This document shows, in pieces, positions 5,921 to 23,542 of a stretch of 25,724 nucleotides of DNA. The stretch covers positions 1 to 25,724 of the forward strand of contig JWZX01002929.1 in assembly GCA_001275005.1 (NCBI GenBank). The letters are read 5' to 3'. The notes beneath the pieces are model-generated. The model was not told the origin of the DNA. It made no database searches and was given only the letters and a program-made list of their open reading frames with translations. This DNA is from Chrysochromulina tobinii (taxonomy: Eukaryota > Haptophyta > Prymnesiales > Chrysochromulinaceae). Position numbers and translations under genes: made by a program. The first letter of the stretch is position 1; every line of letters starts with the position of its first letter.

Positions 5921-7914
5921 ATGCTGATGACTCGTGGCAGCGAAGCGCTCCTGCATCGTCAAGGCATCCTCAACCCAATCGCCATCAAGATGAATTTCCT
6001 GCGGATGACGGTGATGTTTTCGATCAACCACGGGGCGGTGTCGGCTGTGCTCAACCTCTGTGTGGTCGTCCTCGGCTCGGTCGGCTCGTACATGAACGGC
6101 GCGCTGTACGTTGCGTACGCGGCCACCGCGCTCTGCGGCTCCGGAGCCATCGTTGGTCTGCTCGGCTGCCGCGGCGCGCTCATCGTCGGCACCGCTGTGT
6201 ACTGCGTGTGAGCAGCCGCCCCCAAGCGTTTCGCACGCACGCGCGCGCGCGCGCGCCTCCCGATTGCCGGCGACGCATACTCACGGAGTGCACCTCGTGC
6301 TCGTCGCCCCATCTGCTGCTCTCAGGTACGTCGGTGCATTCCCGCTCCTGCTTGTGGTGACGGACCCGTCGTCGCAGATTGCGATCGCCATCTTCGGCGG
6401 CGCGATCGGTGGCGTGGCGGCCGGCTTCCTATGGACGGCCCAGGGCGCGTACTTCACGACCTCGGCGCGGCTGTACGCGGAGGCGCACGACGACGGCACG
6501 GTCACGCCCAAGCAGGCGACCGCCACCTTCGCGGCACTCTTTGGAGCTACGTATTTGGGCTTTGAGCTGATTCTCAAACTCGCTCCGCTGCTGATCACGA
6601 TCGTCGAAGACATGGGCGGGTCCGGCGGCGAGGTCAACGCGAGCGCGGCCTTTCCGCCGCCGCCGCCGCCGCCCTACCTGCCTGGCCTCACCCCGCCGAG
6701 TTCGCCCAGCCTGCCATCAGAGGAACCCAACGGCTCCGGCCGTTACGTTCCGAAGACATCCGATGTGGTGATCGCTGTGCTGTACTCGATCTGCTCGATC
6801 CTCTCGTCGGTGGGCATGACGACGATCTGGGACCTCGAACGCCGCCAGAGCGCCCTCACCATGAACGGGGATGCTTCCTCAGGCCGACCGGCCCCCTCCT
6901 CCTCCACCTCCTCGCCGGCGCCCCCGCCGACGCCCAAATTCTCCATCGAGCGCCTCATGTCGGCCGTGCTGCTCTGGTACAAGCGGCCCGACGTCCTGCT
7001 GCTCTCGCCCGTCCAGATCACGTTCGGCTTCTGCGCGGCCCTCCTCGGCCTCGTCGTAGGCCACCAGGTGGTACCCAAGGCCTTCCCAGGGCGTGTGGCC
7101 ACAGCCGCCAGCTGCCTCTCGGCCATGGTCGCGCTCATCGCAGCGTTGCTGCAAGTGAGTGCCTCTGAGTGCGATTGAGTGCCCCTGAGTGCCCCTGAGT
7201 GCCACCCTGAGTGTCACAGAGTGCCTCTGAGTGCGATTGGTGCGATTGAGTGCCACTGAGTGCCTCTGAGTGCCTCTGAGTGCCCTGAGTGCCACCATGA
7301 GTGCAATTGACGAATGCGTCCATCACGGCGCTGATCGCAGTATCCATTCGGGAAGGCCGCGGTGCTCATCGGCAAGCCGCCATTGATGCTCGTCGGCTTG
7401 TCGGCCTTCGCGGGCCTCGCGTCGCTCTGCTTGCTGCTCGACCTCGAGCAGGTCAGTGCCACTGAGCCGCTGATTACAACTGAATGCCACGGATTACCAA
7501 TGCACGCTTGCTGCTTGACCTCGCGCAGCTCGCTGCCATCGGGACGCTGATGACCACTGATTGTCGCTGATTGCATGCTTGCTGCTCGACCTCGCGCAGC
7601 TCGCTGCCATCGGGACGCTCGTGCTCTGCTACGTGCTGCAAGGCGTAGGGCGTGCCTGCTACGAGGGCACGAACAAGGCGCTCTACGCCGACCTCTTCCC
7701 CCACGACAGCGAGGCGGCCTTCTCCAACATTGTGCTTGCTAATGGTGCCGCGTCGGCGATCGGCTTCTTCATGTTCCCGAGCTTCACCAATGGTGCCATC
7801 GCCGCCACCGCCTTCTCGAGCGCGTGTGTCGCCATCGTCGCCTATGTGATCGCGGAGGCTCTCACCCGCTGCAAGGGCACCTCCACCCCTCCGGAGCTGG
7901 TCACTATACGCTGA
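5921..7914 (+). CDS. UNC93-like major-facilitator transporter, four exons
   Basis: The model joins 5921-6207, 6326-7154, 7341-7451 and 7600-7914, 513 residues, with every junction in phase. There are about twelve hydrophobic segments. UNC93/MFS features include GVAAGFLWTAQGAYFTTSARLYAE (a 'LWTAQGxY' motif) and LFGATYLGFELILKL in the first half. The C-terminal half has VLQGVGRACYEGTNKALYADLFP then FSNIVLANGAASAIGFFMF, matching UNC93 'GxGDxxxNTQxxALxxxLFP...SAIGFF'. A long central loop is Pro/Ser-rich (PPPPPPPYLPGL). UNC93 proteins are membrane proteins linked to channel regulation or receptor trafficking; the substrate here is unknown. Start uncertain: ATG 5921 is the first Met in frame, but the frame is open from 5828 and an upstream exon is possible. 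Introns 2 and 3 are minisatellite-bearing. Confidence 0.8.
6208..6325 (+). other. Intron 1 of UNC93-like gene, with (CG)n tract
   Basis: The donor is CTGCGT|GTGAGC and the acceptor CTGCTCTCAG|GTACGTC, 118 nt. It is required because the frame stops at TGA right after the donor. A (CG)n run with potential for Z-DNA lies at about 6239-6257. It is not of the 10-bp repeat type. Confidence 0.75.
7155..7340 (+). repeat. Introner-like intron 2 of UNC93-like gene (10-bp minisatellite)
   Basis: This 186-nt intron has donor CTGCAA|GTGAGTGCC and acceptor CTGATCGCAG|TATCC. Most of it is a 10-bp minisatellite, CTGAGTGCCT with variants such as ATTGAGTGCC, on the sense strand. Splicing joins ...IAALLQ to YPFGKAAVLIG in phase 0. 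Confidence 0.85.
7452..7599 (+). repeat. Intron 3 of UNC93-like gene carrying copies of its own exon junction
   Basis: This 148-nt intron has donor CTCGAGCAG|GTCAGTGCC and acceptor CTCGCGCAG|CTCGCTGCC. Its last 23 nt (7577-7599) repeat the last 23 nt of exon 3 (7429-7451) with one mismatch. A further copy at 7506-7548 matches 7577-7619 at 42 of 43 positions, so it includes 20 nt of the next exon. Using the inner copy as acceptor leads to a stop (…DCR*), so the outer one must be used. Between the copies lie CTGATTG-type units. Confidence 0.85.
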
Positions 7915-8565: not shown

Positions 8566-10707
8566 TCACTGTAGACTAAAAGTGCGGTGGCAGACGGCGC
8601 CGCCGAGCTTCATCTCGAGCACGAGCTTACCTGATGAGGGAGGCACTCAGACGCACACAGAGCCACTCAGAGCCACTCAGAGCCACTCAGAGCCACTCGG
8701 GGCCACTCATCGTCACTCAGAGCCGATCAGAGCCAATCAGCGCCAATCAGCGAGGTCTCATCTCGAGCTCGAGCTCACCGTCCTTGAGATAGCGACGCAG
8801 CACCGTATGGCGTGGGTGTTCCCCGACGGTTTCATTCACCGTCGTGACGAGCACGTCGCCCTCCCACGCATTCTTCTTCTCCCATTTCGAATCAAACAGC
8901 TCCTCTTGCTGCGTAACCTGATGAGCGAGGCAATCAGACGCACTCAGACGCACTCGGACGCACTCAGAAATCACCACCAGAGGCACTCAAAAGTCCACAG
9001 TGCAGCGTCACCCCTATAGGGAATGCCTCGACCTTCAGGCCCCACGGCGCCTGCACGGTGAACTGCCACACGCCGCCCTTGCGTTCCCAGGACTGCACCG
9101 GCTTGAGTCCTAAAGCGAGCTTGCGTTTCATGTAACTCACGCCCGCAGCCTTGAGGAATTCGTCAAAGTTCGACGAGTCCGACAGCTGCCACACGCCTGT
9201 GAGCTCCACGGCCGGCGGCGACTGAGAGGCACTCGGAGGCACTCAGAGGCACTCGGAGACACTCAGAGACTAATGGCCCACTCGCCTGTGAAGTCGACGG
9301 ACGGTTCGCCCTTGGGTGACCTCGCCTCAATAGCCTTCTCTACCACCACTGTCGCTGAGCTCGATCCGGAGCTCGATGGCGTTGAAGGCTGGCTCATCGA
9401 CGCTTGCACGTGAGACTGAGACTCTTTGAGCGAGTCCATGGCGGCCGCCGCCCTGGCACGATCCGCGGCGGCCGCCTTGAACCGTCGGATGACGTGCCTG
9501 ATGAGAGAGGCAATCAGAGGCAATCGGAGGCGATCAGAGGCGATCAGAGGCGATCCGAGGCGATCAGAGGTGATCGTAGGACGACGCGCCTTTGCCGCGT
9601 GAAGAGCACCATCAGCGACGCGAGTGACATTCGATCGAGGCGCGTCTCATCATCGACGGAGGCGGTGGCGGGAGATGCAGCGGGAGATGACGGAGATAGA
9701 AGTCTCCCTGGCAGTGGGGTCATGGAGTCTTCCGGCGGATGAGTGCCTCTGATGACCTCTGATTGCCGTCGTAATGAGCCATCTGGAGCGCCGGGTGAAG
9801 CTAGCAATGCAGGCGTGCTCATCCCTTGCACCTGATGAAGGACGCAATCATAGGGAGCATCAGAGGAGTCCGCAGGAGACCATCAGAGGCAGCCCAATGC
9901 ACTCTGAGCAAACCCGATGCAAGCTGGGCAAACCCGATGCAAGCCGAGCAAACCCGATGCAATCAGGGACGACCCCGATGCGCCCAGACGCGCCCAGGCG
10001 CACCCAGACGCACCCATCCGCACTCAGGCGCACGCAGACCCGAGCAGGCGCAAGCAGGCGCGCACCGCGCTGAAGACGCTCGCATTCCCTAACGATCTCC
10101 GGCGAGCTCCGCGCGACGATTGGCCATATGGCGACGGAGTACTCGACGATCGAGAGCCTTCGGAGACTGCGCAGCCTGGCGACTGCGGCGTGTTCATCGC
10201 GGCCCCCCGCGGCGACAGCGTTTCGGTGAAGGCTGACTGCGGGGTGTGGAATGCGTCCCGTGGAGACTCTGCAGCGGCCCTTTCAAACGCGACTCGCACG
10301 GCATCGGCGCCCAAGGGGGTGTTGAACTCGTACCCGGCGTGGAGCGACGGCTCGGGCGTGTCTAAAGGGGTCAGCAATTCGACGCTGATTTGCCGTCGTA
10401 CAACCAGTGGGCTATTGACTTGCACCGTCAGGGGGCTGTCTTCCGGCGGCGACGGTGCCCTGCTCGTAGGAGTGGGCGCGCTCTTCGCAGCTGGGTTTGC
10501 ACCACCGATGGCAGGCACATCGCTCTCTGCAGCTAGTGATTCAGTGATAGGCACTGACCGATGGGCTCGAAGCTGCCTATCATCGTCCAGCTCTAGCGGG
10601 ATAGGCGTCACGTGCTGCCCGTGATTCTCCGCAACAGTCAGCACAACATCAGCTTGGGCTTTGCTCGCAGCGCACGCACAACATATCACCATACTGGCCA
10701 CCGTCAC
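8566..10707 (-). CDS. Protein with C-terminal FABP (lipocalin-superfamily) domain, six exons
   Basis: The model joins 10707-10066, 9831-9590, 9497-9286, 9196-9012, 8917-8779 and 8630-8566, 494 residues, all junctions in phase. The last ~134 residues (from VDFTG, about 361) are a complete cytosolic FABP/CRABP-type beta-barrel. They begin VDFTGVWQLSDSSNFDEFLKAA, followed by GVSYMKRKLA, and end DGKLVLEMKLGGAVCHRTFS; compare 'F.G.W.L..S.NFDEYLKALGV' and 'DG.LV..M..G.VVC.R.Y'. These barrels carry fatty acids or retinoids. The first ~360 residues are Ser/Thr/Pro-rich with many TP motifs (LLTPLDTPEPS, NTPQSP) and a short Ala-rich helical part. MTVASMVICCACAASKAQA could be a signal peptide, odd for a FABP. 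The next Met is residue 6. Five introns, four minisatellite-type with the shared 3' end, interrupt the gene. Confidence 0.85.
8631..8778 (-). repeat. Introner-like intron 5 of FABP-domain gene
   Basis: This 148-nt intron has donor GACG|GTGAGCTCGAG and acceptor CTCATCAG|GTAAGCTCGTG. The first 21 nt of intron and of next exon match at 19 positions. The body is CTGAGTGGCT-type 10-bp units. It ends TGAGTGCCTCCCTCATCAG. Splicing gives DGKLVLEMKLGG, the expected end of a FABP barrel. Confidence 0.88.
8918..9011 (-). repeat. Introner-like intron 4 of FABP-domain gene
   Basis: This 94-nt intron has donor ATAGGG|GTGACGCTGCA and acceptor CTCATCAG|GTTACGCAGCA. Intron start and next exon start match at 9 of 11 positions. 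Units are CTGAGTGCGT. It ends TGATTGCCTCGCTCATCAG. Splicing joins FPIG to VTQQEELFD. Confidence 0.85.
9197..9285 (-). repeat. Minisatellite intron 3 of FABP-domain gene, GC-AG
   Basis: This 89-nt intron has donor TTCACAG|GCGAGTGG and acceptor CTCACAG|GCGTGTGG. An imperfect direct repeat of 18 bp (15 matches) straddles both junctions. CTGAGTGCCTC units fill the 5' half. The intron lacks the CATCAG end seen in its neighbours. Splicing yields the canonical VDFTGVWQLSDSSNFDEF. Confidence 0.75.
9498..9589 (-). repeat. Introner-like intron 2 of FABP-domain gene, GC-AG
   Basis: This 92-nt intron has donor GGCAAAG|GCGCGTCGTCC and acceptor CTCATCAG|GCACGTCATCC. The first 18 nt of the intron match the first 18 nt of the next exon at 13 positions. 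Units are CTGATCGCCT/CTGATTGCCT. It ends TGATTGCCTCTCTCATCAG. The donor is GC, not GT. Confidence 0.8.
9832..10065 (-). repeat. Introner-like intron 1 of FABP-domain gene
   Basis: This 234-nt intron has donor AGCGCG|GTGCGCGCC and acceptor TTCATCAG|GTGCAAGGG. GTGC is shared at both boundaries. The body holds degenerate 10-bp units and about three copies of a 20-bp unit containing TTGCATCGGGTTTGC. It ends TGATTGCGTCCTTCATCAG, the shared terminus. Confidence 0.85.
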
Positions 10708-11054
10708 TGCTCTTCCTGCTGCCGGTGCGCGATGCGCTCGCTAGCTCGCACGCACGCTATCGACGATGATGAGCACAACGCCCGACGAAGGGGTCCCCAC
10801 ACACCATGCTTGCGGAATTTCTAACTTGAAACTTTGTTTAGTGTTGCGAACAATGCCTCCATGGAGACCGGTCCGAAGCCGCTAGCCCGCACACGGCTGC
10901 CTCCTCACGCGGGAGGGGGACAGTATCCTACAGATCGGAGGGAGATGGCGTGCCTAAGTGCTGCGGTCCGAGCAGCGGTGCGGCGCGATCCGATGACAGC
11001 ATGCAGCTAAAACGTGAACCCCGTGATCGGCCGCACCCGTGCCCACCCCCTCCC
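10708..11054. promoter_or_regulatory. Spacer: 3' flank of PDK1-like kinase gene and promoter of FABP-domain gene
   Basis: Both neighbours are on the minus strand, so this 347-nt spacer holds the kinase 3' UTR and the FABP promoter. A local AT-rich patch near 10820-10850 (ttgaaactttgtttagtgtt) is the only distinctive element. No gene is recognised. Confidence 0.45.
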
Positions 11055-12631
11055 TCAGACGAGCACTCCCTCATCTTGGACGCCCTTGCGCTCTTGCATG
11101 CCACGCCCGTCACGGCGCTCATCCTCGTCCTCGCTACCCTCGTCCTCGTCGTCCTCGTCCTCCTTATCCTCAGTCGTCCCATCGGCGCCAAGCTGCTCGC
11201 GAAGCATCACATCGTCGAGGTCGTCCTCGATCTCCGTCGGCTTCGCGCCCATGCCCAGATAACCACGCAGCTCGTCAGTGAGCAGCTCCCTCTTGATGCA
11301 TTCAAACCCAATGCGCTCCTTGAAGGGCGCAGGCCAGCGAGCGATCGCTGTGGGTGTCCCCAAGGCGCTGCTGCCTTCGGCGCGTACCTTCATCATCACC
11401 TCGCGCATGGCTATCTCCGACAGCATCGGCAGCGGCACCTTTTGCTTGTACAGGTCGCGCGCGCGCGCACCCTCAAAGAACGGGTGCGCGCGAATCGCCT
11501 CGTGATCATACGTACCTGTGGGGAAGAGGGAATCGCGCCGTGGTGAGCACTTGCATGCCATCGGGAGCGAATCGCCTCGTGATCATACGTACGGGTCATA
11601 CGGAACGCAGCCACGCTCGAATCGGAGCCCTCCTCGCCGCCCTTGTCCTTCTTCTTGACGCCGAGCTGGTCGGCGGGCGGCACACCCGCCGGCCAACGGC
11701 CCCCGAGCCGTTTTGCGGGCTCGAGCACCAGGAGCTTTCCGATGAGGTCCGCCGCGACGACCGGCACGCCCTCGGGAAGTTGATACTTGCGCGCGAGGAC
11801 GCGCTTGAAGGTGAGGTAGTCGGAGCCGCCGCGAAAGGGCGGTTTGCCCACGAGGATCATCGCCACGAAGCAGCCAAACGACCACAGGTCCGCGCGCTGG
11901 TCCGCAAACTTGTTGTTGATCGTCTCTGGCGCCATGTACTCGGGCGTCCCGAGAAACTCTTTGAAGCCCTTGCGGCGCGGCCGCTTGCCACCCTCGTCCT
12001 CGTCGTCGAGGCCGAGCTTGATCGGGTTGCGCAGGAGCTTCGCCGTCCCAAAGTCGATCATCTTCACGTGGCCGTCTCCGCTGATCAGCACGTTCTCGGG
12101 CTTCACGTCGCGGTGGACGACGTCGTGCTCATGCAGCCACTGCAACACCTCGAGTACCTCGGCGGCGTAGTTGCGCGCAATTGTCATCGGCAAGCCCGTC
12201 TTGTGGCAGCACTGCCACAGCTCGCCACCCGGCACCGCCTCCATCGACAGGTATGCCGCGCCCACGTCCTGGAAAGCGTGGTACAGCTCGACAATCGACG
12301 GGTGGCGCAGCCGGCTGAGCACCCAGCGCTCGATGAGCACCTCGTCCATCTTGTGGTAGCGCTTCACTTTGGTCTTATCGATGATCTTGAGCGCGACCGT
12401 CTTGTGCGTCGAGCGCAGCGTCGCCTGGAAGATTTGGGAGTAGTTGCCCTCGCCGAGCAGCACCTCCAAGTCAAAGTTCTGCAGCGTCACCTGCTGCTGC
12501 TGGAAGCCGTTCATCTGCTCGCTGCCGGGCACCAATACCTCGCCCTTGAGCAGCCGCCACTGGCGATAGCCGCACGCTCGCTCGACGAGCGGCTCCGCGG
12601 GCGTGAACGCAGGAAGAAGGAAGGCTTCCAT
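11055..12631 (-). CDS. AGC-type Ser/Thr kinase, PDK1-like, two exons
   Basis: The model joins 12631-11593 and 11515-11055, 499 residues. Kinase landmarks in order: glycine loop GEGNYSQIF (60-68), VALKII with Lys82, HRDVKPEN (173-180), DFGTAK (193-198), GTPEYMAPE (228-236), DLWSFGC. DFGTAK and 'IERWVLSRLRHPSIVELYHAFQD' are characteristic of PDK1, the kinase that activates other AGC kinases by activation-loop phosphorylation. Here a charged insertion (LDDEDEGGKRPRRKG) lengthens the activation segment. Exon 2 supplies the end of the C-lobe (TYDHEAIRAHPFFEG). The C-terminal tail is very acidic (EDKEDEDDEDEGSEDEDE). I see no PH domain, unlike metazoan and plant PDK1. ATG 12631 is the first Met in frame. 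The single intron carries an exact 26-bp repeat of the following exon. Confidence 0.85.
11516..11592 (-). other. Intron of PDK1-like gene bounded by a 26-bp exact direct repeat
   Basis: This 77-nt intron has donor ATGACCC|GTACGTATG and acceptor TCCCCACAG|GTACGTATG. The first 26 nt of the intron (11592-11567) are identical to the first 26 nt of exon 2 (11515-11490). The other 51 nt are unrelated to either flank and end in a polypyrimidine-type acceptor (CCCTCTTCCCCACAG). Retention would shift the frame and remove the AHPFF motif. Confidence 0.88.
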
Positions 12632-13005
12632 CTTCGCGACGTGGCGTTCACAGCGAGTCCACAGTGAATAGAGAGTGGGTCGACTTCAACCATCGACTGA
12701 AGGTAGGACCAATTCCAGCGGAGTTCATAATATTAACGCAGCCGACGCATTCCTGCTTTGGAGCATGTTCCGACGCTGCCAATTGGCCTTGCCAATTTCG
12801 AATTTGCATTGGCCAATTGGACGCTGCCGAATCAGGATGCAGGAAGCTCACTGCGATCTCTGTTGGGCAATGCCCCTCATGCGCGCGCTCGACACCGTTA
12901 TTACGCAACACTGACGCGACAGCGCCCGGCTTGAAGATCACACGCGGACAGGGCGACCTCGCCCCTACCGTACCTAAACCATTCCAATCTGTGCAACGAA
13001 ACGTA
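12632..13005. promoter_or_regulatory. Spacer upstream of PDK1-like gene with CCAAT cluster and inverted repeat
   Basis: This lies between the COX19 stop (13006) and the kinase start (12631), both minus strand. At 12779-12820 CCAATTGGCC and GGCCAATTGG form 10-bp perfect arms around AATTTCGAATTT-rich sequence. The block is bounded by the direct repeat GACGCTGCC (12772-12780, 12820-12828). Several CCAAT pentamers on both strands lie about 150-190 nt upstream of the kinase ATG, where NF-Y-type boxes often sit (inference). An open frame through the region shows no domain. Confidence 0.5.
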
Positions 13006-13432
13006 TCACCTTCCTGGTTCACGTAGCCCAGCAAGAAAGCCTCGACGTCGCTGCTCGGTCGATGGCGATGTGTCCGGCGCCTCCGGGCTCGGAGCGGCGG
13101 ACCTGCGGAAGCCAAGCTTTTCGAGCTGCTCTTTGGCCATGAGCTCTCTGTGGGCGCGTGAAGCGAACGAGCAACGCGTAAGAGGTGGAAGCGAGGCCAT
13201 GCGTTCCCACATATTCACGTGCTGGCGCTCACGTGTCCATGCGGCACTGGAGGTACGCTGCTGAGAGAATGCGGCAAGCTTCGGATTGCGCTTGCATGCC
13301 GTTATCCTTCAAGCACGCCATGTACGCCTTCTTGGGCTCGGAGCATTCGCCAAAGTGGTCGAGAGGGAAGCTACCCTTGTCGGGCGGCTTCGGCGGTAGG
13401 CCTCGAGCTGGCACGGACGCATGAGACGCCAT
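13006..13432 (-). CDS. COX19: COX19-like twin CX9C cytochrome c oxidase assembly factor, two exons
   Basis: The model joins 13432-13233 and 13147-13006, 113 residues. The sequence KPPDKGSFPLDHFGEC is the typical COX19 opening. The twin CX9C motifs are CSEPKKAYMAC and CRILSAAYLQC. After splicing the protein reads CRMDTELMAKEQLEKLGF, which closely follows the family 'CRM...LM..E.LEKLGF'. COX19 is a small intermembrane-space protein needed for copper delivery during complex IV assembly; it folds by MIA40-dependent disulfide formation. The gene is short as expected, with a Ser/Pro-rich C-terminal extension of about 35 residues. The 85-nt intron (GAC AC|GTGAGC ... GCCCACAG|AGAG) is plain, without minisatellite. 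Confidence 0.9.
13148..13232 (-). other. Intron of COX19 gene
   Basis: This 85-nt GT-AG intron has donor GACAC|GTGAGCGCC and acceptor CGCCCACAG|AGAGCTC, phase 2. It has no tandem repeat and no boundary duplication, so it serves as an ordinary-intron comparison within this window. Confidence 0.85.
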
Positions 13433-13550
13433 GTCCGTGCGGTCGTCGAGGCGAAGTCACGTGCTGATCGAGTTCGGGACCAAGATCTCTCCGTTCCGGC
13501 ATTCGCATTTCGCGCGCCGCTGACCTTTTATAATCGCGTGAACAATACGC

Positions 13551-15071
13551 CTATCCGAACCAATGCGCGGCACTGTTTGCGTCGGCGGCAGGCGAAGGAC
13601 GCACGGTCGGCAGGTACCACGGGTCTTGCAGGTCTGACTGACAATTTCCCGCACCGCCTCGTCCGCCACCATCCTCGTGTACATGCCACAGGTCAGCACC
13701 GCGCTCGTCATGGCGCTCGTTCAGCTGCATCTCCGTCGACGCCTGCTCACCGAGCTGCGAACGGCGCTCGTCCGCAGCGCGCGGACGCGCCGTCCTGGGC
13801 ATAAGCGCCGTACTGGGCGCCTGCCTCAGCGCTCCTGGAGGCCCCGGGACAATCATGCGAGGGCGCTCTCCCGGCGCGCGCGCTGGCAGCGGCGGGCGGG
13901 GCGGCGCGTGCTTGAGCGCGAGTGCAGACGCCGCGGGCAGCCGCCCGAACGTCGAACGCCACATCCGTCGGAGCTCAGCCTTGGTCTGCACGACCTTCAC
14001 AGCGTTCTCGACCCAGCTGAGGCCCTCCTCCTGTGGGAATTGCTCGTAGAGGACGTCGAGAATGATGTCCAGCAGCGATCGCTGCTGCTGCTGCTGCTGC
14101 TGCTGGGGGCACTGATGCTGCGGCGGCGGCGACAGCTGCGTTGCAAACGGCGGCTTCTGCGGTGGTGGCTGCTGCGCGGTCATTGGCGCTGTCATGCGCG
14201 CGTCCCGTGAAGAAGTCTGTGAAGAAGCCTCTGCCTCCGGGGTGGCAGCCGCGTCAGACTCGGGAGGCTCGAAGATGCCATTCGCGTCGGCGGCCATCTC
14301 CCTGACAGCGTGCTCCGCCGCCTCAATCTCGTCATCGAGCTCGTCGAGCCACGCAAGCGCACGTGTCACCTCCTGCGGAGTGAGAGCTGGCGCATCGTCG
14401 CGTCGGCGTTCGGCATGGAGCTGTGCGAGCGCGCGCTCCTTGGCGTCTATGGCGGCCTCGCGTTCGCGCCGCAGCTCCTCCATCGCGTCCAGCCACGTCG
14501 CCTCCCGCTCGGCGAGATCCTCGACCTCCGCTGCGAGATCCGCCTGCCACTTGAGAGTCCGGCGCGCCTGCGAGATGAGCGCCTTGAGCTCGTCGCACAC
14601 CTCCCACGGCGTCGGCCGCGCGAGGGCCTCGACCAGGTCGACGGTCCGTACGCCGTTGACGACGCTCGGGTAGTGCACCACGGTCAGCACGGCGTCCGGG
14701 TGCGCGGCCTCATACACCTCGCGGAGCACGTGGCTTTCACGGCGAGGCACGTGCCAGCAGACGCCAGCGGCCATCAACTCGGCGAGGTTGGCGTACCAAT
14801 CTGTGTGAAGGCGCTCGAGCATGCGCTCGCGAATGGCGGCGTGACCCTCATCGAAGGGCGGTGGCGCCTCGCCGGCGGCGGCGATGCGAGCCGCATCCGG
14901 TGTCAGCGAGAGTGCCGCAAGATCAATCAAGAGCGCCGGGGGCTCCAAACGATCATCGGCAGCGTCCGCGGTGGCATCGCCAATCACGGTGGGCGCAACG
15001 AAGGCATCTTCGTCCTCGCGCGGCGCGAGCGGCGCGAGCTCAAAGTTGTCGTCGTCCCACACCACCGACAT
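13551..15071 (-). CDS. Hypothetical polyQ, coiled-coil protein
   Basis: This 506-residue open frame starts at ATG 15071 (MSVVWDDDNFELAPLAPRED). The acidic Trp-containing start faintly recalls eIF3j but nothing else does. There is a helical part near residues 75-130 (ERMLERLHTDWYANLAELMA). A long charged coiled coil lies at about 175-245 (LAAEVEDLAEREATWLDAM..., ALAQLHAERRR). A Pro/Gln region with eight consecutive Gln follows near 322-330. A further helical segment is LLDIILDVLYEQFPQEEGLS. The C-terminal ~100 residues are Pro/Arg-rich and could include read-through of an intron. I do not recognise the family. It is divergent from the MYB-CC gene. Confidence 0.6.
   Translation of the reverse strand: MSVVWDDDNFELAPLAPREDEDAFVAPTVIGDATADAADDRLEPPALLIDLAALSLTPDAARIAAAGEAPPPFDEGHAAIRERMLERLHTDWYANLAELMAAGVCWHVPRRESHVLREVYEAAHPDAVLTVVHYPSVVNGVRTVDLVEALARPTPWEVCDELKALISQARRTLKWQADLAAEVEDLAEREATWLDAMEELRREREAAIDAKERALAQLHAERRRDDAPALTPQEVTRALAWLDELDDEIEAAEHAVREMAADANGIFEPPESDAAATPEAEASSQTSSRDARMTAPMTAQQPPPQKPPFATQLSPPPQHQCPQQQQQQQQRSLLDIILDVLYEQFPQEEGLSWVENAVKVVQTKAELRRMWRSTFGRLPAASALALKHAPPRPPLPARAPGERPRMIVPGPPGALRQAPSTALMPRTARPRAADERRSQLGEQASTEMQLNERHDERGADLWHVHEDGGGRGGAGNCQSDLQDPWYLPTVRPSPAADANSAAHWFG
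14082..14105. repeat. (CTG)8 trinucleotide repeat encoding polyQ on the minus strand
   Basis: Eight uninterrupted CTG units on the + strand read as eight CAG codons in the hypothetical protein, preceded by QHQCPQ. Such tracts are prone to length change. Confidence 0.9.
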
Positions 15072-15696
15072 GGACTGGAGTCGAGGACAGTCGTGTGAAC
15101 GTTACCTTTGCCGAAACTGCACAGCAACTCTTCTACCCGCGGGAATCGAGGCGCGAGGCACGCTCGGCGTGCTCAGCGTCCAGCAACGAGAGAAGTGCCG
15201 ACCGGTCGAGGCAGACGCACGCGGCTCCCTTGCGCGGCTCAAAAAGTCCTCACCGCTCACGAGGTGGGAGGTGTCAACGTCAGATCGTCAGTCCACCGCC
15301 CACGAATTCTGCGTCCAGGTGTCCCCGAGCGGCGGAGATTTTTAGCGGCGGCCTCGCCGCGGAGATCCGATCTGAAAAGTAGGATGCTTTTTCCCTGGAC
15401 GGTTTCGAGATGAAAAATTCAATAGCGTTGCATAAAAGAGGAATTTCCGACGCGACACGTGTGATCAAACGCATCAACGGAGCCGAGATCACAAGGGAGG
15501 TCTTACGCGCAATTTCCGTTCCGTCAATTGTGTGTCGGATGCGAGCTGAATAGGTCTCTGAATCTGCACCTTTGCATTGGGTACGCATGGCCTCTGGCCT
15601 TGTTTCCCTCGTCCAGCGCGCCTGATCGACCCTCGGAAGCTCACACGTGCCTGTGCTCGCCTCACCCTGCGTCGCAGGTCCACCCTGCGCGCACCC
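15072..15696. promoter_or_regulatory. Divergent spacer between polyQ gene and MYB-CC gene
   Basis: This 625-nt head-to-head spacer holds both promoters and 5' UTRs. The frame of the MYB-CC gene is open for ~120 nt upstream of the chosen Met but lacks an in-frame ATG there. A lower-GC patch lies near 15400-15550. No motif stands out strongly. Confidence 0.45.
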
Positions 15697-17322
15697 ATGC
15701 ACGACGGGATGAGCTCCATTGCTGAGGCACCCCGAGGAAACCTCCGACCCAACTATTCCTATGGCTCACTCGCGGCTGCTGAGCAGCTTGAGGCGCTCAT
15801 GCGCCACCCTCCGCCACCCGCCGTGGACTCACTCGCAAGCCGGCGCGCGCATGCGATGTACGGCGCATCGCACATCAGCAGCGGCATGTGTGGCCTGGGC
15901 CAGTTCGGCTCGGCGCCCACTCATGAGCCGACTTTCAGTGGGCCTGGCAGCGACGCGAGCGGGTTTATGGGCGGCCTGGACCGTATGGACTTTTCGCAGG
16001 CCTATGGCGGCAACATGGGCGGCAACATGGGAGGCGGCCTCATGCGCGGCGGCTTCAGTGAGTCGGCCTCCGGCGGCATGCCGATGTCATCGTCGATGCA
16101 ACAGCACCATGCGAGCCTCGCCGCGGCATCGGCGCTGGGCGCCGGTGGCGGCTATTACACCGCGAGCCGCGGCAGCTGCATCGAAGACGACGGCGCCACG
16201 CGCTCCTCGCTCTCCATGATGCACAGCGCAGGCGCAGCGGTTCGCAGCATCCAGCCTACGCCGGGCCTAGCGTCCATGGCGCAGGCGCCGGCGATGGCGA
16301 GCGCCTACGGCGGCTACGGCGGCGGCGGCGGCTACTTTGGGGTGGGCTCGGCTCCCGGCCCGGTCCTGAGTGACTCGGTCTCGCCCACACACATGGGCGG
16401 CATGGGCGGCATGGGTAGCATGGGCGGCGGCTCGCCACAGGGCGATGGTTCGGCTGGTCAGAAGCGGCGTTTCGTGTGGACCCCCGAGCTTCACCAGCGC
16501 TTCGAAGCCGCCGTCAATGCGCTCGGCCTCGACATTGCGAAGCCGAAGACCATCCTCAAGCTGATGAACGTCGACGGGCTCACCAAGGCCAACATCAAGT
16601 CGCATCTCCAAAAGTACCGGTGCATGATGGCCAAACGGTCGACGGACTCGGGAGGCAAGGGCGGCGAGGGCTCGAGCGGCTCTTACACGGGCCTCGTGCC
16701 ATCCAAGCCGGGGAGCGCCAACGGCAGCGTCGACTCGCGCTCGACGGCGGCTCTCGAGTCCGAGGGCTTCGGATCGATGGGAGAGTCGACTGAGGAGGAC
16801 CCTGCCGCGCAGCTCGACCTCGAAGGGTCGAAGACGTCTCTACATAAGAACCTTGAGGTACAGGAGATGACGCTGCAGGTCCAAATGGAGCTCCAGAGAG
16901 AGCTCTCGCGCCAGCTCGAGCTGCAGAAGAAGCTGCAGGCCGAGATGGAGAGCCTGATCGCTGCCAACGTGGAGGTGAACACCAACACCAAGATGGGCTC
17001 CATCCTGTCGCTCAAGGCCAAGCTGCAGAAGGATCTCAAGGACCACCTTCGCATGCAGCATCAGCTCCTCGAGCAGCTAAATAGCGTGGTGCTGCCTGCC
17101 GTCGAGCGGCTCGACACACAAGAGTCCGATGACAGCACCACTGCCACCGCGTCCGCGTACGCTGATGCCGAGAAGAAGCGTGCGAACGTGTCGTCGGCGC
17201 CTGCCGTGTCGGCGTGCAAGAATAGTAGCCTCTCCTCTGATGACGGCGACGATGACGAGGACGAAGAGGACGATGAGGACGATGAGGAGGAGACGCCCTC
17301 GAAGCGCCCCAAGGCGACGTGA
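15697..17322 (+). CDS. GARP/MYB-CC transcription factor, PHR1-like
   Basis: This single-exon frame has 541 residues from ATG 15697. The N-terminal half is rich in Gly, Met, Ser and Ala (GGNMGGNMGGG, GGMGGMGSMGGG), like an activation or low-complexity region. Residues ~255-312 form a GARP Myb-like domain: KRRFVWTPELHQRFEAAVN, LGLDIAKPKTILKLMNVDGL and the diagnostic SHLQKYR. At 386-421 a coiled coil reads LEVQEMTLQVQMELQ, RELSRQLELQKKLQAEMESL. It matches the MYB-CC 'LQMEVQRRLHEQLEVQ' signature of plant PHR1 and green-algal PSR1, which control phosphate-starvation genes. A second coiled coil lies near 435-465, and the tail is acidic (DDGDDDEDEEDDEDDEEE) then basic (SKRPKAT). The Myb core also resembles B-type response regulators, but no receiver domain is present. 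A role in phosphate response is inferred from the family. Confidence 0.85.
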   Translation: MHDGMSSIAEAPRGNLRPNYSYGSLAAAEQLEALMRHPPPPAVDSLASRRAHAMYGASHISSGMCGLGQFGSAPTHEPTFSGPGSDASGFMGGLDRMDFSQAYGGNMGGNMGGGLMRGGFSESASGGMPMSSSMQQHHASLAAASALGAGGGYYTASRGSCIEDDGATRSSLSMMHSAGAAVRSIQPTPGLASMAQAPAMASAYGGYGGGGGYFGVGSAPGPVLSDSVSPTHMGGMGGMGSMGGGSPQGDGSAGQKRRFVWTPELHQRFEAAVNALGLDIAKPKTILKLMNVDGLTKANIKSHLQKYRCMMAKRSTDSGGKGGEGSSGSYTGLVPSKPGSANGSVDSRSTAALESEGFGSMGESTEEDPAAQLDLEGSKTSLHKNLEVQEMTLQVQMELQRELSRQLELQKKLQAEMESLIAANVEVNTNTKMGSILSLKAKLQKDLKDHLRMQHQLLEQLNSVVLPAVERLDTQESDDSTTATASAYADAEKKRANVSSAPAVSACKNSSLSSDDGDDDEDEEDDEDDEEETPSKRPKAT

Positions 17323-18393
17323 GCAGAGACATCTATTGACGGCCGTGGCGTGCAATATAGTCGTCAGTGGACGCCTAGAGACATCTATTGACGGCCGTGG
17401 CGTGCAAGATGGATCCGAACGGCGAGCCACCGCCGGCTGGCACGCACGCAGAGTATGTGGCTTCAATCAACCGAAATCAGGGTGCGCACGGGAGCGTGTG
17501 GTTACTTCAGGGTGCCCCACGGCCGACCGGGCCGCACGCGCGTCAAGTGCGAACCTTCACAAGTGGACACAGGACGCGTGCCGCGAGGAGAGAGTGACGT
17601 ACGCGACGGGCGACATACATGCTACGGATGTGGAGAGAGAGACCACATGAGAGAGAGAGACCACAGATGCATGTGCACAGAGAGAGCGATAGCCGCGAGA
17701 GACGACAGATGCACACAGAGCGTCGTGTCGTTTCCGTGGTCGTGGCGCGAGTGCAAGTATATACACGGTGCTGTGGGCATGCCGGTGTGGAAAGACGTGG
17801 TGGTGTCAGTTCCGTTGCGCGCCCTCATGAGTGATGAGACCGAGGCATGCGACGGGCCCGCACATGATGGTTGATGCGGTGCACGGCATGTTCAGATCAT
17901 GTTGATGATCATGATTGTGCCGGCCTGCGGCTGCACTATTCCGTGATTTATATTTCCGTTTTTCGTTTAAAAGATTAAAACATTTTTATCGCGACCGTCA
18001 GATGTCCTCTTCCCGGATCCCGCCCGGGCCCGCTCTCCCGCTCACGCCGCCCGGGGCGGGGGCCGTGTCCACGCCCGCCCCTAGCGGCGGGCCGATCGTA
18101 GTGCGCCGAGCGGAGCGGACAGCTCCGACACCGCCGCGGCTCATCGGCATCGGCGCGGATCTTCGCAGGTTCGCAGCATATCGCGTGTGAGAGGTCCCAC
18201 ATGTGGTGATGGTCCATCGCCGGACCGCATCCTCAAAACGGCTCAAATGACGAATCCTTCGAAACTGACCGGGCGTAGCAGAACGGAATTGCAATCGAGA
18301 TACGAGAAACACTACCCCGCATTTGCCACCAAACGGAATCCGATCGCGAATCCCGCAAATGATGGACGAGATGTGCGAATCATCTATTTCAAT
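17323..18393. other. Convergent intergenic region with GA-rich repeats and an AT-rich island
   Basis: About 1.07 kb lies between the 3' ends of the MYB-CC gene (+) and the PTE-related gene (-). It contains the 31-bp repeat pair and a GA-rich patch at about 17630-17720 with gagagagagaccaca twice. An AT-rich island lies at about 17938-17996 (ttcgtttaaaagattaaaac). A 62-codon frame at 18002-18190 is Pro-rich without recognisable features. No RNA gene was recognised. Confidence 0.5.
17325..17407. repeat. Spaced 31-bp perfect direct repeat after the MYB-CC stop codon
   Basis: Positions 17325-17355 and 17377-17407 are identical 31-mers containing agagacatctattgacggcc, offset 52 bp. They begin three bases after the TGA at 17320-17322. 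Confidence 0.92.
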
Positions 18394-19767
18394 TCAAGGG
18401 GGCGCGCACGAGAAGGGGACGACGAAGTTGGCCTTGCGGTGCTGAGCCATGCAATGCATCGAACAGTAGCGCTTGTCAAACTTCTCGTAGTACTCGTGGT
18501 CCGTTGGGAGCGCCTCGGCGAGATGGACCGCCTCTTCATACCCAGCGTGGCATCCGTTGCACTCCCACACCTTGACCAGCCGAGACGTGCGCTCGGGCGG
18601 CCGCCACCAGCTCAGCAGACGCGACGCGTTGCCCGCGCGCAGCGCGTCGACGTCCACCTCGCTGAGGTTGGCCCGTCTGAGACGGCCAACGAAGCTTCGG
18701 ATCACATGGGTCAGGCCGGCTCCGCCAAAAGTGGCGAGTTGCAGGCGTGAGCTGACCGCATGCGACAGTACCAGCTGCGACGCATGGCCCGCTGCGGCGA
18801 GCGCCGCCACCTCGCGTGCCACCTCGGAGTCCGTCGGCGGAGGTGCGAGTTCAGCGTCCACGTAGTCGGCACCGGCCACACTCCACGTGTCGCCAAGCCC
18901 GTCGAAGCACAAGGTGACGCCGAGCCGGAGGAGCTGCAGGAGGGCCTCACGCCGCTCGGACGCGAGCAGGTTCTGCGCATGCGCCACGATGATCGACCCT
19001 GCTCTCGCACCCTGAGCTATCAGGCACTGGACGCCCTCCAGCGCACCCGAACCGTCGCCTGGGCATGCAGGCAGTGGACAAAGGATCGGAGCACCCGTGC
19101 GCAACTGCGCACGGCCGAGGGCGCGCAGCGTGGCCGTGCGTGCCCGTGCGAGCTCGGGCGTGAGCGATGACGCGGCCGCTAGTGCGGGAACCTCGCCCGT
19201 CGTCAGTATTCCCGCACGCACTGCCGTCGCAGAGCCGCGTACAGCGATGCCAGAGGTGAGCTCGGCAACCAGTCGGTCGGCCATCTCGTCGACCGGTTCG
19301 TCTTGTTGCATGGCAGTGTCGGAGACGTCGAGCGGCTGCTCCTCCGGAGCGCGCATGGCCTCGTCGACACTCACACCGGCCGCCATGATGATGTTGACCT
19401 TGGTCAGCTGCGACAGCGAGAGCAGACCCTCGGCGTCTCGTCCGACAACGGTGCAGTCGACAACGGTGCAGCCGGCAGGGCCAGTCGCATCTCGGAGCGC
19501 CGCGAGCTCCTGCATCAAGACATCGACGCCTGGAGAACGCAATGCAGCCAAGCAATGCCGCGGCTGGCTGCGGATCTGGTGGAGCCGGCCGAGCGATATG
19601 AGATCGTTTGCGAGGGCAGGAGAAGCAGCTTGCTGGAAGCGCGAGGTGAAGTCAAAGAGCAAGTGCTCGTGCACGAGGATGTCCCCCGTGAGCGAAGCGG
19701 TGGCCCCGGTGACGCAGATCGCCCGAGGCCTGCTGTCGTCTGCGTCGCGGCGTGAACCCTCGGCCAT
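18394..19767 (-). CDS. Phosphotriesterase-related (PTER-like) protein with added Cys/His domain; active site incomplete
   Basis: This single exon has 457 residues from ATG 19767. The amidohydrolase-type barrel shows TGDILVHEHLLFDF (His33 and His35, the HxH metal pair), CTVVDCTVVGRDAEGL ('T.VD.T..G..RD'), RAGILTTGEV (Glu192, near the bridging Lys/Glu) and VAHAQN with His263. It also has TFGGAGLTHVIRSFVGRL ('YGG.GY.HI...F...L'). By comparison with family motifs remembered for PTER, two ligands look lost. The usual His in 'P..IH' is ILCPLP here, and the usual Asp in 'V.(A/S)HD' is SHA (Ala337). Residues 398-457 add a small domain with C403xxC406, C435xxxC439 and H443 (VWECNGCHAGY...DKRYCSMHCMAQHRK), resembling a treble-clef or MYND-like zinc site. 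This is likely a non-catalytic or altered-function homologue (inference). Confidence 0.82.
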   Translation of the reverse strand: MAEGSRRDADDSRPRAICVTGATASLTGDILVHEHLLFDFTSRFQQAASPALANDLISLGRLHQIRSQPRHCLAALRSPGVDVLMQELAALRDATGPAGCTVVDCTVVGRDAEGLLSLSQLTKVNIIMAAGVSVDEAMRAPEEQPLDVSDTAMQQDEPVDEMADRLVAELTSGIAVRGSATAVRAGILTTGEVPALAAASSLTPELARARTATLRALGRAQLRTGAPILCPLPACPGDGSGALEGVQCLIAQGARAGSIIVAHAQNLLASERREALLQLLRLGVTLCFDGLGDTWSVAGADYVDAELAPPPTDSEVAREVAALAAAGHASQLVLSHAVSSRLQLATFGGAGLTHVIRSFVGRLRRANLSEVDVDALRAGNASRLLSWWRPPERTSRLVKVWECNGCHAGYEEAVHLAEALPTDHEYYEKFDKRYCSMHCMAQHRKANFVVPFSCAPP

Positions 19768-20148
19768 TGCGCGCACTCTACTTTCAGTGAAGCGCCATGT
19801 TGGGCATCCAGTTTCCCACTCTCGGTCTCGGCCACGCGTCTCTCTGTCGGCTCACAGCGCGCACCAGTAAGCGTGCACAGTCTCAGCGGGTGCAGTTCTG
19901 GTGCTGTACCGGTGTCCCGGCTCCCCCGGTGTCAATTTACCGGTATCGGTGATAAGTACCCCTGGTCCAGGGGTACCGTATGGTTTTGGTATAGGCGCGA
20001 TTCATCGTCGATGACCGCCGAGGACCGCCGAGTCATCATTACTTCGACAGTGGAACGGTTCAAAAACACCGGTCTCAGGTGGGGAACCCAGGGGACAAAC
20101 ACCGGTACATCCAGATTCGTCTCTTCTTCCCGCTCCGAAATGGGTGTT
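19768..20148. promoter_or_regulatory. Spacer: 3' flank of helicase gene and promoter of PTE-related gene
   Basis: Both neighbours are on the minus strand. The region has a perfect 21-bp palindrome (listed separately), several CCGGT(A/G) elements and a TATAGG near 19990. The 'acaccggt' octamer recurs near 20068 and 20098. No gene is recognised. Confidence 0.45.
19956..19976. promoter_or_regulatory. Perfect palindrome with 10-bp arms
   Basis: GTACCCCTGG and CCAGGGGTAC are exact reverse complements around a single T. It lies about 190 nt upstream of the PTE-related start and 175 nt past the helicase stop. It could be a dimeric transcription-factor site or an RNA hairpin; the sequence alone does not decide. 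Confidence 0.6.
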
Positions 20149-23100
20149 CTAGCCCCTCCGTGCACCGTAGCGATACTTGGTCAGCAATCGGCGAGGCTTC
20201 TTCCTCTCGCTTTTGGTACCTCCAGCTGCACCCCTGTCTCTTGGTGCCTGCACGGCCAGCCGGGCCGTCTTTCCCCCTCTCACCTTGCGCTTCAGCTCGA
20301 GCCTCTTTTGCTTCGGCGGCTCGGCGGGGAGGGCACACTGCTCTAGGAGTGGCTGGACCATGTTCAGCAGAGGCTGCCCATCGAAGCGGCCGCAGTGACC
20401 GCGATCTCCGAGGGCTTCGTCAATGACGCGCGCAAGCCTCGCGCCGACGGCGTGGCGAGCCTCGACGATGAGCTCCGCGGTCGTCTCGCTCGCATCGACG
20501 CTCAGCCACTCGTCAACAGTCATCCGTGGACCCCCCGGCGCTGCCTCGAGTTTCAACTGCTCTCCCAAGAAGATGCATGCACCCAGAGGGGGTACAGGCG
20601 TCACGCCACGGATGAAGGCGTCGGAGGTGGCGACGCAGTCGTAGTACGCGAGGTATGGCGAGGCCCAACCCGTGCTGTTGAGACGAGCGCCGCAGCTGGC
20701 CGGGTGCAGCCGCGCCGTGTTGGGTTCGAAAGAGCTGGAAGGCGCATGCGGCACCGAGAGAGAGCGCCCCACACCCACGGCAGCGCTACGCATCTCGAGC
20801 ACGCACGTGCCGGGCCCGAGGACCGATCCGTCCTCCGAAAAGGTTTTCACGTACCTGATGAGTGGGAGGATCAGCGGACAATTATGGCGCTCTCAATAAC
20901 ATCCGAGGTCATCCGTGGGCATCCGTGGGCATCGGCGACGTACGCGAGGCGGGGGTACAACGCCACAGCGGTGAGTGCCGCTAGTAGCTCCGGTGTAGCT
21001 CCGAGCCCAGCTGCCGCCCCGCCTGGCGCCGCCCCGCCTGGCGCCGCCCCGCCTGGCGCCGCCACGCTTGGCGCTGCGGCTTGGGCCATGGACGACGTGG
21101 CCGCCTGCGCTCGAGCTCTCGCCTCGACGGCCCCAAGGGAACGCATACGCCGGGAGAGCAGCTTTGCCTCCCCAAGACTCTCAATCAGGTCCGCCTTGAG
21201 CGCTCGCATCTCTCCTAACACCTTGGGGCTGAGCGAGCGAGCCTCAGCCAGCTCGGCGCGCCTGTCTCCTACCCCCGCGGGGGTGGCGTAGAAGTAGGCT
21301 TGGTAGGCATGCAAGGCAGCCAGATGGTCGGATTGCGAGCCGCGCGCGAACCTCTCCTTGGACGCGGCGACGCGTCGTGCCTCCATAGCATCCAGCGGGA
21401 TCACAAACGGAGAACGCAGCGACAGCGCAGCGGCGATCGTCAGGGTTTCGTCAACGGCCCCAAACGCAACTCCCAGCACAAGCAGTTTGGCCAGCCGCGG
21501 CTCGACGGGTAGTTGGACAAGCAGGCGCCCTAACGGCGTGAGCTGTTCGGCGGCATCCAGGGCCTGCAATGCGGTGAGCTCTCTCACTGCGGCGGCGATG
21601 GCGTCGGCTGGAGGCGGCTCTGGAAGCGACGACAGCACGTCGGATGCCTTGTGAGGCAAGCGGAGCGCCTTCGTGGTCATCACGAGCGCCTCGAGTGAGA
21701 CCCTCAGTACCTGATGAAGCAGGCAACGGTGGTCATCAGTGGCCATCAGAGGTCATCGGTGGTCATCGGTGGTCATCAGTGATCATCGTGATCGTCAGTG
21801 GTCCTCAGTGGTCATCAGTGATCATCGGTGGTCGTCAGTGGTCATCAATGGACATGAAGTACCTCCGGCTCTGTCGCTGGCACCAGGACAGCATCCGAAG
21901 GAAACAGATGGTAGCACAGGCCCGCTCGCACACGCCCAGCCCTGCCGCGTCGTTGGCGCGCCTCTGCATCGGAGATGCAGACATCGTCGAGGCGCGTCAT
22001 GCGCGTGCTCGCGTCGTAGCGAACGCGCTTCACACGCCCCGTGTCGATCACCAGAGCGATGTCGTTGATCGTAATCGAGGTCTCTGCCACATTGGTCGCA
22101 AGCACCAGCTTCGTGACCCCGGCCGGCGCCGGCTGGAACACGCGCACTTGCTCATGAGGTGGCAACGCACCATGTAAGGGGATGACCCACTCCGCTCGCA
22201 CAGGGCCGTCGGGCGATGCGAGGACCCCAATGAGCACCCTCATCACCTCATCAATCTCGCCCGAGCCTGGCAGAAAGACGAGCACTCCCCCGCCCCCCTC
22301 AGCCTCCTTTGAGCTGACGAATCGACGCACCAGCTGCAGGATCAGGTCGACATTAATCGCGGTCAGGTCGAGCGCACGCAGGGCGTCGAGCACCGCCGGC
22401 GACGCTGTGGGGAATCGCTCCGCCACTTTGGCCTGCGGCATCAGCGCGACGCGTTCCGGGTTGTCGCTCTGCGCCGCCCGGCGACGCGCAGCCGCCGAGT
22501 GGATGCACCAGGGCGCCGAAGGGATGACCCGATGGTCCGTCTCCGCAAGTGCATGCTCGAGGTACCGAGTGGTCACCTCGTACGCACGCCCCTGCAGCCG
22601 CACGCGTGGCACCGGCAGCCGCAGCTGCTGGCCAAAGTACGCCTCGAAGTAGTCGCTGGCGAGCGTGGCACTCATGAGGCAGAGGCGCAGTCTTGGCAGA
22701 GGCGCCGTCCCAGTCGGTGTGCCGGTCGCATTTTTAGCCGCGTTCGTGCGGTTCACCGCTCGCCTCGAGCGACGCGCTGCCTCCTCTGACTGCCGGCGCT
22801 GCCTGAGCAACACGCGCCGCAGCGCCAAGAGCAAAAGGTCGTTCTCAACAGAGCGCTCGTGCACCTGATGAAGGAGGCAATCAGACGCACTCAGAAGCAC
22901 TCGGATACAATCAGATGCAATCAGATGCACCTCGTCCACGAGGACCACGTCGAAGCGGGCGAGACTCGGATCCTCTTCCAAGATGCGCAGCAGCACTCCG
23001 ACCGTGCATACAAGCAGGGCATTGCCGCGTGCCGACTGGCGCGACTCGCCGCGCACTGCGTATCCGACAGCTCCGTGCCCAATTCTCTCGCCGCGTTCGG

Positions 23101-23542
23101 CCGCGATGCGTTCTGCGACGCCCACGGCCGAGATCCGGCGCGGCTGCGTGAAGGCGATGCTTATCGGCCGCTTCGTGCGCGCAGCGTCCTCTAAGAGGTA
23201 TTGGGCGACTTGCGTACTCTTGCCGCATCCCGTCTGGCCTTCTACGAGGCTCACGGGCTTTCGTAGGGCGTCCAGAATCGCCGAACGCGAACGGTACACT
23301 GGCAGCTCCGCTCGTTCACGCGCCATTGGCCCTCCGCCCTTGAGCAACTGAGGGAGCGGCGGCCGCTTCGGCGTCGCATTGCGACGGACCTGCTGCTGCT
23401 GCTGCTCGCGAAGTGGTTCAGAAGCAGATTGCACACCCTTATCACCTAAATGCACCAAGTCGTCCAGTGCGCTGCGAACCAGCTTGGCCTTTGCCGGAGA
23501 TAGCTTGACGCGCCGAGAAGGCGGAGCCCAGGCCTCGCTCAT
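20149..23542 (-). CDS. DEAH/RHA-type RNA or DNA helicase, four exons
   Basis: The model joins 23542-22931, 22864-21863, 21710-20944 and 20854-20149, 1028 residues, all in phase. Motifs in order: I GQTGCGKSTQ (~102), Ia FTQPRRISAVGVAERIA, Ib TVGVLLRIL, II DEVHERS (~203-209, split by intron 1), III SATLA (~268), IV LVFLPGSGEIDEV, V ATNVAETSITI (~460), VI QRRGRAGR (~505). The helicase-associated winged-helix/ratchet part follows (LRVSLEALVMTTKALRLP; LTPLGRLLVQLPVEPRLAKLL). An OB-fold comes next (LYPRLAYVKTF...ARLHPASC...YLAYYDCVATSDAFIRGVTPV) and then a basic tail. This fits the DHX36/DHX57/DHX29 group of RNA helicases. ATG 23542 (MSEAWAPPSRR) is chosen. An upstream in-frame Met (MLHITAWLAPLVWL, about 23640) would add a hydrophobic leader. 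Three introns, all of the shared-3'-end type. Confidence 0.88.
20855..20943 (-). repeat. Introner-like intron 3 of helicase gene
   Basis: This 89-nt intron has donor CTCGC|GTACGTCGCC and acceptor CTCATCAG|GTACGTGAAA; GTACGT is duplicated. Units are GATGCCCACG. It ends TGATCCTCCCACTCATCAG. Splicing gives LYPRLAYVKTF, matching the OB-fold entry of DHX helicases. Confidence 0.88.
21711..21862 (-). repeat. Introner-like intron 2 of helicase gene
   Basis: This 152-nt intron has donor CCGGAG|GTACTTCATG and acceptor TTCATCAG|GTACTGAGG; GTACT is duplicated. The body is about a dozen 10-bp units of GATGACCACT type. It ends CCGTTGCCTGCTTCATCAG. Splicing joins ATEPE to VLRVSLEALVMTTKAL, the expected DEAH sequence. 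Confidence 0.9.
22865..22930 (-). repeat. Introner-like intron 1 of helicase gene, inside the DEVH box
   Basis: This 66-nt intron has donor GACGAG|GTGCATCTG and acceptor TTCATCAG|GTGCACGAG; GTGCA is duplicated. Units are CTGATTGCAT/CTGAGTGCGT. It ends TGATTGCCTCCTTCATCAG. It is 22 codons long with no stop, so the frame stays open if it is retained. Splicing restores contiguous DEVHERS. Confidence 0.82.

Follow-up and report, generated by a model that had tools for sequence, protein, structure and literature searches.

Two families of predicted introns with long flanking duplications in Chrysochromulina tobinii: named donors and a candidate route of copying

Introns of the window and their host genes

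Two unrelated genes of the haptophyte Chrysochromulina tobinii, one FABP/lipocalin-like and one encoding a DEAH/DHX36-like helicase, are located in the window (the whole 25,724-nucleotide stretch of contig JWZX01002929.1 analysed here) and carry introns with similar 3' ends. How do introns of unrelated genes come to end alike? A preliminary description had assigned one 18-nt end to seven of these introns. A search of the window with TGATTGCCTCNNTCATCAG (up to 3 mismatches allowed) returned 5 matches, all on the minus strand (8631, 8918, 9498, 9832 and 22865) and each with 0 or 1 mismatch, while 100 shuffled windows gave a mean of 0.11 matches and never more than 1. These correspond to FABP introns 5, 4, 2 and 1 and helicase intron 1, for which the claim stands (at most 1 mismatch); it does not extend to helicase introns 2 and 3, which end in ...CTTCATCAG and ...ACTCATCAG, respectively, and have only the last 7 nt, TCATCAG, in common with the family terminus. 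The lengths given for the seven introns (66-234 nt) were borne out (234, 92, 94, 148, 66, 152 and 89 nt), and the bodies, described as 10-bp minisatellites, are largely imperfect 10-bp arrays, helicase intron 3 being only partly so. Introns of this kind are referred to below as family 1; the PDK1-like kinase gene of the window holds a member of a second family (Table 1).

Table 1. Coordinates of the introns, host genes and duplications in the window
Feature	Position	Strand	Description
FABP/lipocalin-like gene	8566..10740	-	Pfam Lipocalin match under cut-off; upstream limit not a fixed start
FABP intron 1	9832..10065	-	234 nt; array body; 3' end CTTCATCAG; first 4 nt = start of next exon
FABP intron 2	9498..9589	-	92 nt; GC-AG; 3' end TGATTGCCTCTCTCATCAG; next exon matches 9/12 first nt
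FABP intron 3	9197..9285	-	89 nt; GC-AG; 3' end CTCACAG; additional to the preliminary description
FABP intron 4	8918..9011	-	94 nt; 3' end TGATTGCCTCGCTCATCAG; next exon matches 9/12 first nt
FABP intron 5	8631..8778	-	148 nt; duplication: 19/21 identity between its first 21 nt (8758-8778) and the next exon's start (8610-8630)
DEAH/DHX36-like helicase gene	20149..23542	-	alignment to DHX36
Helicase intron 1	22865..22930	-	66 nt; GTGCA flanking repeat; spliced protein VDE/VHER (junction at the slash)
Helicase intron 2	21711..21862	-	152 nt; TGATGACCAC array; spliced protein PE/VLR (junction at the slash)
Helicase intron 3	20855..20943	-	89 nt; GTACGT flanking repeat
PDK1-like protein kinase gene	11055..12631	-	spliced frame of 499 residues; one family-2 intron
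Family-2 intron, kinase gene	11516..11592	-	77 nt; GCATGCAAGTGCTCACCACGGCG...CCCCACAG; no minisatellite
Target duplication copy 1, kinase intron	11567..11592	-	26 bp; identical to 11490-11515; gives 5' splice site GTACG
Target duplication copy 2, kinase gene	11490..11515	-	26 bp; remains in exon
Further array insertion, plus-strand gene	7429..7619	+	two 48-bp host copies around it; probably same class

The starts of nine window introns were compared with the starts of the exons that follow them. Five scored at least 9 (10, 9, 10, 19 and 26) and the other four 5-7, against a control with a mean of 5.3 and a maximum of 9; loss of the intron-side duplication would be expected in older copies. In FABP intron 3, two imperfect copies of one exon segment hold both splice sites. 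The plus-strand gene at 7150-7630 contains two array regions and the 48-bp host copies, and is probably of the same class as the family-1 inserts. An Rfam search of the window gave no match. Other features of the window are (i) a phosphotriesterase-family domain that continues C-terminally into a VATC treble-clef domain (18394-19851, minus strand), (ii) a beta-propeller (SBBP) protein with 183-bp coding repeats (375-2270, plus strand) and (iii) a perfect 31-bp tandem repeat in two copies (3405-3467).

Reading frames and protein homology suggest that the inserts of both families are spliced as introns. Predicted splicing gave open frames in four genes (the FABP-like gene, the helicase gene, a GTPase gene at locus L018 and the PDK1-like kinase gene), and alignments of relatives cross 10 of their 15 junctions without a gap. 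The helicase aligned with DHX36 without a gap at junctions 1 and 2, junction 3 lying outside the aligned stretches. The FABP protein is 68% identical over 132 residues to its homologue P0001, gap-free over junctions 3 to 5 (junction 3 being near the alignment start), and at junctions 1 and 2 it resembles its relative by eye only. The GTPase gene, considered without its 5' region, contains six introns (four of them compound) whose predicted removal leaves 353 residues in open frame; over 234 of them, through junctions 2 to 6, the alignment with a 94%-identical relative is gap-free. In the kinase, PDK1 was matched on both sides of the family-2 intron, with the junction between the aligned stretches.

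Families and flanking duplications across the genome

A genome-wide count of the terminus, which the preliminary description had proposed, was performed on 53.15 Mb in 2,253 contigs. It revealed 1,074 exact matches of the family-1 terminus (533 + 541, 19-mers) and none of the reversed pattern, and 728 of the 1,074 (68%) are directly followed by GT, compared with 6.5% of 11,823 CAGs in the DNA examined, which is itself rich in these elements. DNA sampled from the genome has 63.0% GC. The distribution is clustered: 44 contigs within C1-C256 account for the first 100 matches listed, against about 83 expected if contigs are treated as equal and their lengths ignored. Seven 3-kb stretches chosen by contig number contained no array element and two isolated TCATCAG, a weak comparison, since the mean density predicts about 0.4 exact termini in that much DNA. 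The bodies of family 1 are arrays of 10-11-bp units; the array at L022 has a 7-bp unit (ACTGATG) and that at L026 a 13-bp unit (GTGATTACTCTCT), both still with TGAT, hinting that array units can arise anew. At L018, L010 and L017 there are tandem copies of duplication plus insert (units of about 70-86 bp), as if unequal exchange between target duplications multiplied new introns.

Direct repeats around the inserts were analysed in two ways. In the first, the 3' flank of 169 elements (loci L004-L007, overlapping or nearby, were omitted) was sought upstream, and a score of at least 12 was reached in 73/169 cases, against 6/169 with swapped flanks. In the second, a direct-repeat scan around arrays yielded 145 oriented duplication pairs with an array and 193 without one in 21 dense sources, and 2 and 22, respectively, in 27 other loci; the dense loci were selected for holding the terminal motif, and insertion densities there are not genome-wide. 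Filtering of the 145 pairs (length 16-60, insert 18-160, identity, array content, and removal of duplications with CATCAG) retained 69 insertions, whose duplications have a median length of 28 bp (range 16-60, the search floor being 16); 35 of them are perfect. Just past the stop of the Myb-like gene of the window, at 17325-17407, a perfect 31-bp duplication surrounds a 21-bp insert that resembles neither family; from this case, the process that makes long duplications may reach beyond introns.

The duplications can supply splice sites. An exon-neutral GT-AG intron is possible in 35/69 insertions, against a mean of 6/69 in a control in which the duplication was read backwards, and this excess is real; GC-AG introns alone (7/69, control 10) are not above chance. 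Altogether an exon-neutral intron is readable in 42/69 insertions (control 16/69), where the duplication provides the 5' splice site, as some introner families co-opt theirs from the target duplication; the same test found none in 27/69. The 3' site of the 42 exon-neutral cases lies at the insert end (within 3 nt) in 16 and within the second duplication copy in 26. Duplication length and insert length were not significantly correlated in family 1 (rho -0.13, p 0.30, n 69) and only weakly in family 2 (rho -0.51, p 0.045, n 16) and in the pooled data after filters (rho -0.29, p 0.013, n 75), and a trade-off between them was set aside.

Family 2 has no array. Its core, GCATGCAAGTGNTCANCACGGCG, has 585 exact genome matches (23-mers) and the reversed control has 0. 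Of 27 distinct copies, 15 have a flanking duplication (control pairings: 1 of 81), with a median length of 29 bp (range 14-50), and in three copies (L062, L066 and L072) both ends are sharp, in the order duplication, GCATGCAAG...CCCCACAG, duplication. At L019, L025 and L014 there are composite inserts, in which a family-1-like array is followed by the family-2 core.

These lengths bear on whether the inserts are conventional introners, i.e. non-autonomous, MITE-like cut-and-paste DNA transposons moved by a transposase. Copies in many genes, a target duplication that gives the 5' splice site (as in some introners in the passages of Gozashti et al. 2022, PMC9860276) and the terminal CTGAT...ATCAG of family 1, its only inverted-type ends, would all suit such elements. 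The same passages, however, give DNA-type introners duplications of 3-9 bp, often with inverted ends, whereas those found here span 16-60 bp in family 1 and 14-50 bp in family 2; no terminal inverted repeats were seen by eye in family 2, and the truncated copies described below carry donor exon sequence. Cut-and-paste transposition thus fits the data poorly, and we consider it improbable.

Donors, insert ends and the copying process

Comparison between loci indicates that two introns are truncated copies of particular introns elsewhere, carrying bases derived from the donor exon. The insert at L002 (contig C19) shares 64 identical nt with C395, including donor exon sequence and GTACGG past the CAG. 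Its leader, which links the first duplication to the array, is host sequence at C395, recurring in the downstream exon of C395 and absent from that of C19, and the direction is therefore from C395 to C19. An insert on C107 shares 73 identical nt with C1396, starting in donor exon sequence and with GTG past the CAG; the starting stretch, TGAACTCCG, belongs to the C1396 exon, and therefore the direction is from C1396 to C107. Both pairs provide 5'-truncated copies of the LINE/SINE-like kind, and donor and recipient flanks are unrelated over the DNA compared (C1396 is known from 161 bases). Seven leaders were tested for a second copy, which was found for 3 and absent for 4. The third, that of L024 (C216), recurs at C380 with one mismatch (a leader-level match), while the leaders of L012, L058, L073 and L061 had no convincing second copy in the genome; places with 2 mismatches were the only ones found for L061, were equally given by a reversed control and were rejected. 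The 8-nt leader of the kinase insert, taken with the core, had no further copy with fewer than 2 mismatches.

The 64 and 73 nt common to these pairs at unrelated sites, together with the 1,074 exact 19-mers and 585 exact 23-mers, require copying. The pairs refute, as a full account, a tandem duplication of AGGT-bearing exon segments or filler break repair with subsequent local minisatellite expansion, in which intron likeness would come from selection for branch-site-like units; we regard this as highly improbable, even though duplications flank the inserts, odd units such as ACTGATG (L022) exist and splice sites lie inside the duplication in 26/42 exon-neutral cases. Tandem genomic duplication, as outlined in the passages of a review (PMC3443670), also draws both splice sites from two AG|GT copies of an exon segment, as in part of the insertions found here; here, however, the intron is not made only of duplicated exon, and the copies are separated by a foreign insert related to the families.

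The ends of the inserts were analysed for the 67 inserts of family 1 (the 69 filtered insertions minus two window rows outside that family). A constant 3' end was observed in 25/67, which end in TCATCAG, and 42/67 end elsewhere; the corresponding CACAG is at the boundary in 11/16 family-2 cases and absent in 5/16. Among the array inserts that hold TCATCAG, 25/26 stop within 5 nt of it and the remaining one continues for 13 nt. Microhomology exceeded expectation at the 5' join (1.33 vs 0.42, n = 46, equalled by 0 of 5,000 shuffles) and at the 3' join (1.15 vs 0.38, n = 27, equalled by 1 of 5,000) in a strict set that was not hand-cleaned, a few of its 46 members being family-2-like or probably coding repeats; values from the 67-insert analysis were left unused, as they are inflated by duplications that include the array. 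The earlier proposal that copies have spread between unrelated genes, where they sit as introns, thus finds support in the termini, the GT that follows them, the duplications, the spliced frames and the two donor-recipient pairs; the long target duplications, the second family, the donor-specific copying with exon-derived bases and the 42/67 inserts without a TCATCAG end go beyond it.

The explanation that we favour for the two families, their long duplications, the possible supply of splice sites, the microhomology at the joins and the two donor-recipient pairs, all apparent in the sequences compared, has as a whole a probability of roughly 0.6. Spliceosomal introns already present would be copied and then pasted at new exonic sites, the copy being 5'-truncated and, in the best-resolved cases, ending at the donor 3' splice site. 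A stagger of roughly 15-50 bp in the target break, once filled in, would leave the target stretch in duplicate, with one copy to either side of the insert. Where the duplication starts with GT, its first copy would become the new 5' splice site, while the insert would supply branch-site-like CTGAT units, pyrimidines and CAG; if AG|GT lies within the duplication, its two copies could supply both splice sites, and either route could restore the reading frame exactly. As template, a reverse transcriptase provided in trans would use excised intron RNA, starting at the nick with the 3' end of that RNA, in a LINE/SINE-like manner. The copy-and-paste part of this explanation is very probable, while for the RNA template the odds are about even.

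LINE/SINE elements inserted by target-primed reverse transcription show microhomology at the 5' join, 5' truncation and target duplications of variable length, all of which were also found here, and they favour one 3' end, which 25/67 family-1 inserts and 11/16 family-2 cases do as well; unlike these elements, the inserts have no tail and no reverse transcriptase assigned, and the mobile unit would be an intron. The stop at the 3' splice site, the 5' truncation and the long duplications of variable length look like the outcome of target-primed reverse transcription acting on excised intron RNA. Tentatively, at somewhat under even odds, this may be phrased as intron retrotransposition, in which reverse transcription of excised intron RNAs would begin with their 3' splice end where other exons carry staggered nicks, the fill-in duplication would provide the truncated copy with a 5' splice site, and donors could be introns of any kind rather than one special element, so that two unrelated families would spread by one machinery. 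The genome contains 26 RVT_1 matches (22 over cut-off), and at 20 of these loci (about 1.7-3.7 kb each) no convincing element was found that could be an autonomous partner, two motif matches being spurious.

That 25/26 copies with a donor-like 3' end stop there, though DNA is unmarked at that point, and that no donor exon follows the 3' splice site except for 3-6 nt in common, speak against the main rival to an RNA template, namely DNA template switching or patch repair. On this view, microhomology would let a stalled or broken end jump into an intron, copy part of it and return upstream, so that the target is written twice. We consider this possible, if rather unlikely: it agrees with the microhomology at both joins and with the variable 3' ends of the 42/67 family-1 inserts (these, and the CACAG missing in 5/16 family-2 cases, strict 3'-end-primed copying would not predict), and the GTACGG (6 nt) and GTG (3 nt) common to the recipients and the downstream exons of their donors are also expected from it. 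Arrays of the same locus are moreover more alike than chance (0.157 vs 0.106, sd 0.004, 500 permutations), a value inflated by tandem copies, with pairs 2-4 kb apart at baseline. RNA-templated copying and DNA template switching may both be in operation, and selection for spliceable insertions alone could yield the GT preference and the sharp 3' end.

Relation to known intron gain and significance

Introners as such are known, and the passages of Gozashti et al. 2022 (PMC9860276) include a family from a Chrysochromulina MAG, whose members bring a 5' site of their own, use target sequence as the 3' site and are flanked by 4-bp duplications. Like introners in those passages, both families described here consist of many similar introns at unrelated, non-homologous positions in an aquatic eukaryote, with a target duplication that yields a splice site; unlike them, they have duplications of about 14-60 bp, largely minisatellite bodies and traceable truncated copies of single donors. 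In Amoebophrya the duplications are 3-5 nt, according to the passages of PMC7789003. Direct repeats around new introns, suggesting staggered breaks, were linked to double-strand break repair in Daphnia (Li et al. 2009, in the passages of PMC3443670), but they are short there, while here they are long, the inserts belong to intron families and a donor is named twice. Rogers and Bendich 2025 (PMC11782384) likewise read direct repeats at intron borders as insertion marks; their repeats, from 213 assorted introns of many taxa, are shorter (4-30 bp, mean 11.4 bp), and the passages name no donors. In the open literature on introners, intron gain and haptophyte introns, taken mostly as titles and the beginnings of abstracts (subscription papers, preprints and supplementary tables lay outside this scope), no description of this intron class was found. 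Further work is that of Read et al. 2013, reportedly on E. huxleyi repeats, and of Huff et al. 2016.

The survey in the passages of PMC9860276 removed families consisting of short repeats, by requiring a consensus not made of them. Family 1, with its array bodies, would be excluded by this rule, and family 2 would pass it and may already be present in the tables of that survey. Since repeat-filled introns were filtered from so large a published survey, the class may be under-counted.

The origin of new introns is an old open question; intron transposition has often been proposed, and its donor is hard to trace. In two cases here, both donor and recipient are named, with the direction indicated by exon-derived bases. 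The long duplications would make it understandable that a copy lacking a 5' splice site of its own could function at once, and duplications of about 28 bp, combined with the apparent copying between genes, give an exceptionally clear picture of a possible origin of new introns.
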